Below, piece after piece: positions 3,709 through 6,314 of a DNA stretch of 41,363 nt. Every line of letters starts with the position of its first letter. Position 1 is the first letter of the stretch. The DNA comes from Bacteroidota bacterium. Lineage in GTDB: Bacteria > Bacteroidota > Bacteroidia > Palsa-965. The notes below the pieces were generated by a model. The model worked only from the letters and a program-made list of their open reading frames with translations, was not told where the DNA came from and made no database searches. A program made the position numbers and the translations under genes. The stretch spans positions 1-41,363 of the forward strand of contig JAAFIA010000042.1 of NCBI GenBank assembly GCA_013298545.1. Direction: 5' to 3'.

Positions 3709-3745
3709 AAAAAACGCGCATCAAAATTTAAATGCGCGTTTTTTT
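3709..3745. terminator. Bidirectional intrinsic terminator
   Basis: AAAAAACGCGCAT pairs with ATGCGCGTTTTTTT around a short AT loop. It sits between the convergent ends of the DUF4412-like gene (stop 3697) and the rhodanese gene (stop 3756), with U-runs on both strands. Confidence 0.85.
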
Positions 3746-3755
3746 AGCTTTTACA

Positions 3756-5153
3756 TCAAACTTGTTGCGGCAACTCCAGCTGAACGTTTGTTGCTTTAAT
3801 TTTGGCCCAACCACCACGCACATTGATGAGGTTGGTATATCCTTTTGCCTGCAAGATCGAAATGGCAATCATCGAGCGGTAACCTCCGGCGCAATGCACA
3901 TAAAACGGTTGTGTGTTTGAAATGGCTTCCAGATTTTTGCTGTCGCCAAATTTCGAGAGGCAGAACATTTCTGAGCCTTGCACGTGTCCGCCTTCGTATT
4001 CGCCTGGACGACGCACATCCAACACGGCACGTGCATCAGGATTTTCATTCATCGCATCGGCAAATTGTTGCGCGTCGATCGATTGTACTTGAGCAAGTGG
4101 ATTGCCAGCGGCTTTCCATGCGTCAATGCCGCCGTTCAAAAATCCAGAGACGTGTTCGTAGCCCACGCGCGCCAAACGCGCAATGGCTTCGCGCTCCTGC
4201 CCTTCAGCAGCCACAAGAATCAATTTTTGTTTAATGTCGATGAGTGTGCCTACCCATACCGCAAATGTTCCTTCAAGACCAATGTTGATTGAACCCGGAA
4301 TATAGCCTTGCTCAAACGCATCTGGAGTACGCACATCGAGAATCATTGCACCTTGCGCGAGTTGTGCTTTTACTTCATCAACCGAAAGCGCATGCAGATT
4401 TTGTTCCATTACGGCATCAATTGCCGTGTAGCCTTGTTTGTTGATCATCGCATCGGCAAAAAAGTATTGTGGTGGCGCAGAAAGTCCATCCGTAACCGCC
4501 GCAATAAAATCTTCGCGGTTGTTGATGCGCATGGCATAATTGGTTTCTTTTTGTTGACCAATGGTTGACCATGTTTCTTTACCTATATTTTTTCCACAAG
4601 CAGAACCAGGGCCGTGTGCCGGATAAACAAGCACTTCGTCTGGAAGCACTTTGATTTTATCTTGCAAGGAATCAAAAAGCATGGACGCTAATTCCTCTTT
4701 CGACATTTTTCCATCCAGCAAATCGGGGCGGCCAACATCACCTACAAAAAGTGTATCGCCAGTGAAAATCGCATGCGGTTTTTTGTTCTCGTCTAAAAGC
4801 AAAAACGATGACGATTCGGGCGTATGACCGGGCGTATGCAAAACACGCATGGTGATTTTTCCGATCTGGAATTCTTCCTTGTCTTTTGCTTGATAAACTT
4901 CGTATGCTGTGTTGGCTAGTGGTCCATAAACAATCGTTGCACCAGTTGCCTTGGCAAGATCGATGTGCCCAGAAACAAAATCGGCATGGAAATGCGTTTC
5001 GAAAACGTATTTAATTTTTACGTTGCGCTGTTTTGCTTTTTCGAGATACGGTTCTGTTTCGCGAATCGGATCAATAACAATTGCTTCGCCTTCCGATTCA
5101 ATCCAATAAGCGGCCTCAGCTAGGCAATTGGTATAGAGTTGCTCGATATACAT
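3756..5153 (-). CDS. CstB-like persulfide dioxygenase-rhodanese fusion (MBL fold + two rhodanese domains)
   Basis: 465 aa. Residues 1-230 are a metallo-beta-lactamase fold with THFHADFVSGH (H54, H56, D58, H63), HTPGHTPESS (H110), TGDTLFVGDVGRPDL (D133) and PAHGPGSACG (H180). These match the ETHE1/persulfide dioxygenase group, where a His-His-Asp site holds iron. Residues 260-352 form a rhodanese domain with no active-site Cys (VAAEGQE). Residues 365-460 form a second one with HCAGGYRS (C421). This order of dioxygenase, inactive rhodanese and active rhodanese is that of Staphylococcus CstB, which oxidises persulfides and makes thiosulfate. The gene overlaps the upstream TauE/SafE gene by 38 nt, under an ArsR regulator. 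Detoxification of sulfide or persulfide is therefore the likely role; substrate preference is inferred. Confidence 0.85.
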   Translation of the reverse strand: MYIEQLYTNCLAEAAYWIESEGEAIVIDPIRETEPYLEKAKQRNVKIKYVFETHFHADFVSGHIDLAKATGATIVYGPLANTAYEVYQAKDKEEFQIGKITMRVLHTPGHTPESSSFLLLDENKKPHAIFTGDTLFVGDVGRPDLLDGKMSKEELASMLFDSLQDKIKVLPDEVLVYPAHGPGSACGKNIGKETWSTIGQQKETNYAMRINNREDFIAAVTDGLSAPPQYFFADAMINKQGYTAIDAVMEQNLHALSVDEVKAQLAQGAMILDVRTPDAFEQGYIPGSINIGLEGTFAVWVGTLIDIKQKLILVAAEGQEREAIARLARVGYEHVSGFLNGGIDAWKAAGNPLAQVQSIDAQQFADAMNENPDARAVLDVRRPGEYEGGHVQGSEMFCLSKFGDSKNLEAISNTQPFYVHCAGGYRSMIAISILQAKGYTNLINVRGGWAKIKATNVQLELPQQV

Positions 5154-5976
5154 GTGATGTTGGTTTTGGAGATTTATGTTCGTAATACGATTTAATTAAA
5201 ATGAAAATGCCAAGAACAAGCACAAACCAACCAAATGCAGGTTTGAGTTTTGCCCCTGAAATGCGTCGCGAAAGCCACAAGCCGATCCCAATCCCAGAAA
5301 CAGCAAAGGATGTAAAAAGGATCAAAAAATTCCAGTCGGGATGAATGCCCTGAACCAGATCGGCAGAAAACCCAATCGTAGAGTTGATAAAAATTAGTGC
5401 TAACGAAGTACCAATGGCTTTTTTCATGGGCAAATTGGCCAAGACGACCAATGCGGGAATGATTAGAAATCCGCCCCCCGCGCCCAGCAAACCCGCAATG
5501 CCCCCCACAACCATCCCGCCAATCAAAATCAAAACATACCGGTAACGTTTCGCTTCGCGGTATTCCTCCTGACGAATTACTTTAAATGGCCGAATCATGG
5601 TGAGGGAAGAAATCAGCATCAAGAGTGCAAACAAAATCAGAATAAATAAATCTTTGTCGAGGGTTAAACTTCCTATACCAAGCTGTGCCGGAATGCGTGG
5701 AACCAATTGCGTACGCACCAACCAAATAAAAATAATCGACGGTACACCAAACACCACAACAGAACGCCAACAAATTAATTGGTTGCGTACATAATCGGTA
5801 ACCGCAACCAAGGCCGCAACACCAACAATAAAAAGTGAATAGGTTGTCGCCTCTCCCGAAGAATAATGCATGAGGTAAACCAACACAGGAAGTGTCAACA
5901 TCGAGCCACCACCACCGATGAGACCAAGCAAAACGCCCATAAAAATTGCCGCCGGATAGGCCAAGTATTCCATCAT
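5116..5976 (-). CDS. TauE/SafE family sulfite/organosulfur exporter
   Basis: 286 aa, hydrophobic throughout, with about eight membrane segments. The two family repeats are visible: GVLLGLIGGGGSMLTLPVLV near the N-terminus and GGIAGLLGAGGGFLIIPAL around residue 160. The family exports small sulfur-containing anions. The start ATG at 5976 overlaps the arsR stop in an ATGA, and the second Met (5973) is an equal candidate. Its 3' end overlaps the CstB-like gene by 38 nt, so all three genes are almost certainly cotranscribed. It would remove sulfite or thiosulfate produced by the dioxygenase, but the exact substrate cannot be read from sequence. Confidence 0.85.
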   Translation of the reverse strand: MMEYLAYPAAIFMGVLLGLIGGGGSMLTLPVLVYLMHYSSGEATTYSLFIVGVAALVAVTDYVRNQLICWRSVVVFGVPSIIFIWLVRTQLVPRIPAQLGIGSLTLDKDLFILILFALLMLISSLTMIRPFKVIRQEEYREAKRYRYVLILIGGMVVGGIAGLLGAGGGFLIIPALVVLANLPMKKAIGTSLALIFINSTIGFSADLVQGIHPDWNFLILFTSFAVSGIGIGLWLSRRISGAKLKPAFGWFVLVLGIFILIKSYYEHKSPKPTSHVYRATLYQLPS

Positions 5977-6281
5977 GACAGCGGTCGTTTACATTGATCG
6001 AGGCAATCGAAAATTTGTGTTAAGCAAGGATAACGCAACATGTATAAACTATTGCGCCCATCGCGGGTAACATTGAGAATTCCTTTGTTTTTAAGAATAC
6101 CGAGGTGATGCGAAGCCAATGCCTGCTCCATATCGAGCGACTCGTGAATGGTTGTTACCGAAAGTGGCCCATCTTGTCCTAACAAGGCAAGAATGGCCAA
6201 CCGCTGCGGATGCGCCAACGCTTTAAGCATTTCGGCCTGAACGGCCAAGCGTTTAAGTTGTGGTTTTGTCAAATTCGACAT
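5973..6281 (-). CDS. ArsR family transcriptional regulator of the sulfur operon
   Basis: 102 aa winged-helix repressor: LKALAHPQRLAILALLG (helix 1-2), then MEQALASHHLGILKNKGIL (recognition helices) and VTRDGRNSLYML (wing). The metal-site CxC of ArsR/SmtB in helix 3 is missing. Three cysteines cluster at the C-terminus (C86, C93, C97). The persulfide sensors SqrR and BigR use one Cys near helix 2 and one in helix 5; here the first is absent, so any thiol sensing must use the C-terminal group (inference). It is the first gene of a three-gene operon. A perfect 6-bp-arm palindrome starts 8 nt upstream of the start codon, next to the -7 box, so it probably represses itself. Confidence 0.88.
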   Translation of the reverse strand: MSNLTKPQLKRLAVQAEMLKALAHPQRLAILALLGQDGPLSVTTIHESLDMEQALASHHLGILKNKGILNVTRDGRNSLYMLRYPCLTQIFDCLDQCKRPLS

Positions 6282-6288
6282 ATTAACA

Positions 6289-6306
6289 TATCGAGATATT
6301 TCGATA
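6289..6306. promoter_or_regulatory. Likely operator palindrome TATCGA-N6-TCGATA
   Basis: A perfect dyad with 6-bp arms and a 6-nt AT-rich centre lies between the -7 box (6307-6314) and the arsR start codon (6281), where it would cover the transcription start. ArsR-type repressors commonly bind AT-rich dyads of this size. That ArsR binds here is inferred from position. Confidence 0.6.
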
Positions 6307-6314
6307 CAAAAGTA
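6307..6314 (-). promoter_or_regulatory. -7 box TACTTTTG of the arsR-tauE-cstB-like operon
   Basis: A perfect TAnnTTTG match on the minus strand, 25 nt upstream of the arsR ATG and directly abutting the palindrome at 6289-6306. No good -33 TTG is seen. Confidence 0.55.

Follow-up and report, generated by a model that had tools for sequence, protein, structure and literature searches.

A candidate dithiol ArsR repressor of a putative persulfide-disposal operon in Bacteroidota

The DNA considered here (the window) is a stretch of 41,363 nucleotides from a Bacteroidota bacterium (contig JAAFIA010000042.1, assembly GCA_013298545.1), and its subject is a minus-strand operon of three genes: arsR, tauE/safE and a gene for a CstB-like enzyme. 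The evidence modestly favors an ArsR protein that acts as an autorepressor on a dyad over the start site of its own operon and is released from the DNA when persulfide modifies two cysteines, C93 and C97. The parts of this proposal differ in strength. Autorepression through the dyad is highly probable and the choice of C93 and C97 as the reactive pair is probable, while reactive sulfur, to which the gene neighborhood points, is a slightly less secure candidate for the inducer. The features are as follows.

6307 to 6314, minus strand: TACTTTTG, a Bacteroidota-type -7 box by sequence (consensus TAnnTTTG), which abuts the dyad
6289 to 6306, minus strand: perfect 18-bp dyad TATCGA-AATATC-TCGATA (TATCGAAATATCTCGATA), the probable ArsR operator, judged by sequence, geometry and likeness to the ArArsR footprint
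6281 to 5973, minus strand: arsR, ArsR/SmtB-family winged-helix repressor, 102 aa
5976 to 5116, minus strand: tauE/safE, membrane protein of the sulfite/sulfonate exporter family, 286 aa (PF01925, 131.2 bits)
5153 to 3756, minus strand: CstB-like gene (metallo-beta-lactamase (MBL)-rhodanese-rhodanese), 465 aa
3714 to 3739, minus strand: probable terminator by sequence, downstream of the last gene: an inverted repeat ACGCGCAT-N10-ATGCGCGT followed by a T run

Gene content and candidate operator

The arsR stop and the tauE start overlap by 4 nt (ATGA), and tauE overlaps the CstB-like gene by 38 nt; the operon of a congener (genome G400, locus L033) has overlaps of identical lengths. The CstB-like protein contains a Lactamase_B domain and two rhodanese stretches by Pfam. 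The first rhodanese (257-349) has no cysteine and the second bears C421. In phmmer the protein matches the Staphylococcus aureus structure 3r2u from end to end (3.4e-67) and also 3tp9 (9.1e-75). Its C186 and C421 align with the cysteines at chain positions 225 and 432 of 3r2u, which we take to be, in numbering and role, C201 and C408 of CstB. The protein thus has what defines the CstB type, an MBL and two rhodanese domains with the equivalents of both cysteines, and its MBL part is presumably persulfide dioxygenase-like, with CstB-type activity.

In an S. aureus strain that lacks the per-/polysulfide sensor CstR, tauE, cstA, cstB and sqr are all raised, as PMC5480029 describes. In that cst operon, too, a local dithiol repressor controls TauE and a CstB-like enzyme, but CstR is CsoR-like, whereas the operon of the window has an ArsR and lacks cstA and sqr. 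Given the 3r2u match with both cysteines and the content of the S. aureus cst operon, persulfide disposal is a fair reading of the arsR-tauE-CstB-like operon. Both the compact overlapping layout and the sulfur- or persulfide-handling content (a CstB-like protein with both equivalent cysteines, plus TauE) had been proposed in the original prediction, and both hold.

A perfect TATCGA-N6-TCGATA dyad had also been placed between the -7 box and the arsR start codon, and it is found there, at 6306 to 6289. The order read is TTTG-TATCGAAATATCTCGATA-TGTTAATATG, with the end of the dyad 7 nt before the start codon, and no -33 element is evident by eye at the arsR promoter of the window. The 41-kb window contains 12 perfect 6-N6-6 dyads of any sequence, roughly as many as chance would give, so the mere presence of a dyad is weak evidence. 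The window dyad has p = 0.010 when scored against dinucleotide shuffles of its own 90-nt upstream region. The word TATCGA-N6-TCGATA occurs once in the 4.53-Mb genome, at the arsR promoter, but with about 0.4 copies expected (by hand, from the base composition of the window), a single occurrence does not prove that it functions. The exact dyad is at no other site in that genome and thus gives no sign of a wider regulon.

Dyads of the 18-bp geometry (ATGAA or ATCGA arms with at most one mismatch, or exact ATATA arms) lie upstream of 28 of 60 arsR-headed operons and of none of 78 operons without arsR (Fisher p = 7e-13, with arms picked after viewing the sequences and kinship uncorrected). For the control, CstB-like genes were located by the enzyme alone and the DNA upstream of 80 of them was taken, skipping places already collected with an arsR; one of these regions had an upstream ArsR (L254) and one was too short. 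The CstB-like gene is present in 303 of 395 genomes of the class. In other operons the geometry returns with the arms ATGAA-N6-TTCAT, which lie close to the -7 box or overlap it, and with ATATA-N6-TATAT. In L157, from another family, TATATA-AATATC-TATATA follows directly on the -7 box, with the spacer and position of the window dyad and both arms changed. The congener L033 keeps TTTGTATCGAAATATC...TCGATATG with an 8-nt insertion; its element is TATCGAAA-TATCCACA-TATCTCGATA, in which the extra 8-nt unit leaves TATCCA-CATATC-TCGATA in register with one mismatch. A general palindrome test on 44 loci in which arsR adjoins tauE gave p<0.05 at 8 loci (combined p 4e-4), with scores that reward AT-rich repeats in some of them.

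The exact dyad was also considered as a conserved word and was rejected, because ATCGA-N6-TCGAT (at most one mismatch) occurs in 2 of the 60 arsR-headed operons.

Four further congeners (L209, G397; L210, G395; L211, G396; L212, G398) have a CstB-like gene 66-70% identical to that of the window, with or without tauE. L210 is a tauE-cstB pair without arsR, and no arsR lies in the upstream sequence searched at the other three. The dyad is absent from all four. Judged by these gene orders, arsR seems to be an optional part of the operon that members of the genus have gained or lost.

Repression is suggested by the dyad itself, by its geometry and by the way it accompanies arsR. An ArsR dimer would sit on the dyad immediately after the -7 box, where transcription is expected to start, and block RNA polymerase for all three genes. 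There is a precedent for such a site in the phylum. The DNase footprint of ArArsR, an autorepressor from the Bacteroidota species Arsenicibacter rosenii, TTTTATCGTAATATTGCGATCACAATC, holds ATCG-N8-CGAT (PMC11868830), and the same motif lies within the window dyad. ArArsR senses As(III) in an ars operon via C41, C80 and C82 according to that paper, and in this the ArsR of the window differs from it.

The cysteines of the last helix

The protein passes both domain cut-offs of the ArsR/SmtB family (NCBIfam NF033788, 80.2 bits against 55; PF01022, 36.2 against 22), and its AlphaFold2 model has the order alpha1-alpha4, beta1-beta2, alpha5. The model has a mean predicted local distance difference test (pLDDT) score of 93.4 and a predicted template modeling (pTM) score of 0.82, from a 45-row alignment. 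There are exactly three cysteines, C86, C93 and C97, all of which lie in the last helix because alpha5 is modeled at 85-97. The protein has no alpha3 CxC, no vicinal cysteines in alpha3 of the RexT type, and A32 where SqrR has its alpha2 cysteine (aligned to SqrR 'RLMIMC'). The original prediction was thus correct that the metal-site CxC and the helix-2 cysteine are missing and that three C-terminal cysteines are present.

Among solved structures compared with VIA-align 2, Mycobacterium smegmatis SmtB (8qkf) is closest (Z 15.2, rmsd 2.2 over 98 residues), followed, with many rows tied, by CadC (Z 14.8) and CzrA (14.0-14.4). The alpha5 metal sensors SmtB, CzrA and CadC thus rank near the top among PDB folds (Z 12.6-15.2); the persulfide sensors YgaV (13.9), BigR (13.2) and SqrR (12.1-13.0) also match. 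CzrA numbering equals window numbering plus one in the structural alignment, and the alpha5 zinc ligands of CzrA, which we take to be H86 and H97, would fall at 85-86 and 96-97, within about one residue of the window cysteines. The Asp/His zinc ligands of CzrA and SmtB are themselves absent from alpha5 of the window protein (R, Y, P, C at 83-86; Q, C, K, R, P at 96-100). Residues 86, 93 and 97 share one helix face at 100° per residue, which, together with the overlap with the presumed CzrA ligand positions, suggests that in the model the cysteines would lie at the alpha5-alpha5′ dimer interface.

To collect relatives, three overlapping genome sets (395 phylum-level, 59 'relatives', 395 class-level) were searched for ArsR, and the best 80 loci from a scan of GTDB genome contigs were kept. 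A further 40 regions were added from class-search rows without a locus; the other such rows, among them some close to a contig end, were not used. The resulting 208 loci gave 211 ArsR open reading frames and 180 non-redundant proteins. Sorted by what lies downstream, 81 of these (the window included) are followed by tauE, MBL or rhodanese genes and 94 by no such gene over at least 1.2 kb; five with shorter downstream sequence were excluded. The orthologue core set is made up of the 40 non-redundant arsR genes that have both tauE and a CstB-like (MBL) gene downstream.

In the core set, C97 is present in 39 of 40 proteins, on par with DNA-binding and core residues (only seven columns reach 40/40), C93 in 34, both in 33 and C86 in six. 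All 40 have at least two cysteines at positions 84-102, none has the alpha3 CxC and one has a SqrR-type alpha2 cysteine. Across the 81 sulfur-context proteins, 72 have at least two such cysteines, 70 have C97 and none has the CxC; among the 94 without sulfur neighbors the corresponding counts are 47, 39 and 16. Ten of the 81 have C97 without C93, and every one has a second cysteine, at 98 (five, mutually related), 99 (three), 100 (one) or 86 (one). Extra cysteines are found in 29 of the 60 proteins with both C93 and C97 (10/10 against 29/60, Fisher p = 0.002, kinship uncorrected). Since loss of C93 is accompanied by a substitute cysteine nearby, these alignments suggest that two thiols are needed, one of them fixed at 97. 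The retention of C97 and C93, the rarity of C86, the two cysteines in 40/40 and the substitutes in 10/10 make it likely that the sensor is a dithiol anchored at C97.

The three-cysteine cluster was also considered as a conserved unit and was rejected on C86 in 6/40, against 39/40 for C97 and 34/40 for C93; the original prediction, which had made the cluster the sensing unit, is not supported on this point. It had also named joint conservation of cysteines and dyad across orthologues as a check. C97 and C93 are indeed conserved with the operon, but the exact dyad is found only here and is altered in one congener, and what recurs is its geometry.

In the proposed mechanism, the CstB-like enzyme would oxidize persulfide sulfur and the TauE-family protein would export the oxidized product, as expected from their families. 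Reactive sulfur may modify the C93 and C97 thiols in alpha5, the helix that probably packs at the dimer interface. A bridge of polysulfide or disulfide type, inside one protomer or from one to the other, would then cause the dimer to leave the DNA. C97 would be the fixed residue and C93 its usual partner, with C86 a local addition and possible third thiol.

Alternative signals and known sensors

Paired thiols could also serve a general redox sensor, in which a C93-C97 disulfide forms with peroxide, electrophiles or diamide, comparable to the vicinal cysteines of RexT. Some relatives do adjoin thioredoxin-like, rhodanese or OsmC genes (L082 by eye; L172, OsmC). However, the operon encodes the disposal of persulfide and not of peroxide, and the RexT pair sits in alpha3 and is absent from the window ArsR, so this explanation is rather improbable.

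Somewhat less doubtful, though still unlikely, is an alpha5 site for a trivalent arsenical or soft metal of the AfArsR or SpArsR type, with the sulfur operon derepressed incidentally or serving arsenic or metal stress. AfArsR has Cys95, Cys96 and Cys102 at the end of alpha5 and SpArsR two cysteines for methylarsenite, as given in PMC11868830. In PMC10509353, cluster 5 of a sequence similarity network (SSN) consists of atypical As(III) sensors whose ligands all lie in alpha5. Like these proteins, the window ArsR has all its cysteines in the C-terminal helix; it resembles cluster 5 in this placement only. Planctomycetes-type ArsRs with C86, C93 and C97 (L104, L112, L122) adjoin a permease, which in L104 is ArsP_1, and some ArsRs with the cysteine pair adjoin resistance-nodulation-division (RND) pumps (L117, L044). 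Against this, proteins with the C86/C93/C97 triad also have the alpha3 CxC, which none of the 81 sulfur-context ArsRs has. The spacing differs from that in AfArsR (86, 93 and 97 against 95, 96 and 102), the third cysteine, C86, is not conserved in the sulfur set, and there are no arsenic genes in the window operon.

Several results weigh against persulfide sensing by the cysteine pair. CxxxC ArsRs also adjoin polA-like, DUF983, RND efflux and other genes. A sister clade, named 'NHK' for its 'NHKLRQQI' motif (L019, L020, L022, L023, L024, L028, L047), has 0-1 cysteines and lies directly upstream of CstB-like or rhodanese genes; these seven loci, with L116 and L187, are the nine of 81 sulfur-context ArsRs without two cysteines. 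Since such proteins head CstB-like or rhodanese genes, the pair is not needed there, and by its neighborhoods the NHK clade is a sulfur-operon regulator without it. The tested dyad types are absent from 32 of the 60 arsR-headed operons. A tree-corrected test of two cysteines against sulfur neighborhood, with the C-terminal columns left out of the tree, was powerless (3-4 independent pairs on supported branches, p = 1). The class search profile was built from CxxxC proteins and the contig scan from their alignment, which favors such proteins. On present alignments the pair is best regarded as characteristic of a large group of Bacteroidota ArsRs, many members of which, that of the window included, stand on sulfur operons.

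The NHK clade also bears on a third explanation, in which the cysteines have a structural role and ArsR either responds to another signal or represses constitutively; the same has to apply to that cysteine-poor clade. Its seven loci favor it, but the NHK proteins form a separate clade, the NHK loci tested (L019, L023, L024, L028, L047) are without dyads as well, and the nearby cysteine that replaces C93 suggests a need for two thiols. This is the least probable of the three.

Release of the ArsR by persulfide at C93 and C97 would set it apart from the sensors described so far. All known ArsR persulfide sensors fall in SSN cluster 4, with cysteines in alpha2 and alpha5, according to the HlyU paper (PMC10509353). 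The window ArsR shares with SqrR, BigR, YgaV and HlyU the fold and the sulfur-oxidation neighbors, and its C97 may correspond to their cysteine near the end of alpha5, but the alpha2 cysteine is theirs; the window protein has its second thiol within alpha5, and it scores 44.7 bits against the NCBIfam BigR equivalog, under the cut-off of 155. TsoR (NCBIfam NF045707) was also considered and rejected, at 37 bits against 115. By an extended hidden Markov model alignment, C97 lies about two residues before the alpha5 cysteine of YgaV and SqrR, with the end of YgaV presumed and the structural registers of SqrR variable. In sequence, the predicted departure from the known persulfide sensors stands as to conserved alpha5 cysteines without an alpha2 cysteine or CxC, and falls as to the number conserved, which is two and not three.

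Work on Hyphomicrobium denitrificans (PMC12423496) describes many ArsRs near sulfur-oxidation genes that lack the two canonical cysteines and may act otherwise, and the window ArsR fits among them. In the open-access literature, no description of an alpha5 CxxxC ArsR, or of an ArsR ahead of tauE/cstB in Bacteroidota, was recognized, which does not prove that none exists. A separate Bacteroidota class of ArsR sulfur sensors is tentatively proposed, a possibility that falls somewhat short of likely. Both of its thiols would lie in alpha5 (C97 with a partner at 93, 98, 99, 100 or 86), and persulfide may link protomers where SmtB and CzrA bind zinc, unlike the intraprotomer alpha2-alpha5 bridge of SqrR. 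If true, this would be a second, independently placed dithiol on the ArsR fold, and sulfur sensing would have more than one origin in the family; Bacteroidota would gain a sulfur sensor, and there would be a clean test of how one scaffold tells persulfide from arsenicals and metals.

Further observations on relatives and the window

ArsRs with both the alpha3 CxC and C86-C93(-C97) adjoin permeases in L104, L112, L115, L119 and L130. Pfam identifies the permease as ArsP_1 in L104 and L115, and the others were recognized by eye. CxxxC ArsRs lie upstream of a polA-like gene, identified by eye, in L052, L055, L057, L058, L060 and L061, most of them with a further CxC end; a polA-like gene is an odd neighbor for a thiol sensor. 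Other neighbors of CxxxC ArsRs include DUF983 (L068), RND pumps (L044) and a Sulf_transp gene (L070). For three ArsRs that end in CC at 97-98 (L192, L195, L203), dyads of the GTGAC/TCACA kind precede the center of the -7 box by about 34 nt; they presumably resemble a Crp site.

The probable terminator at 3714 to 3739 is missing from the terminator scan because its loop is beyond the limit of that scan, and the sigma-70 and terminator scans gave nothing useful for the Bacteroidota promoter of the window. Elsewhere in the window, a minus-strand gene at 909 to 2576 encodes what by eye is a pseudouridine-synthase-like protein that has a long series of nearly identical GGYGERKSYGEKKSYGDKK units in its N-terminal part.

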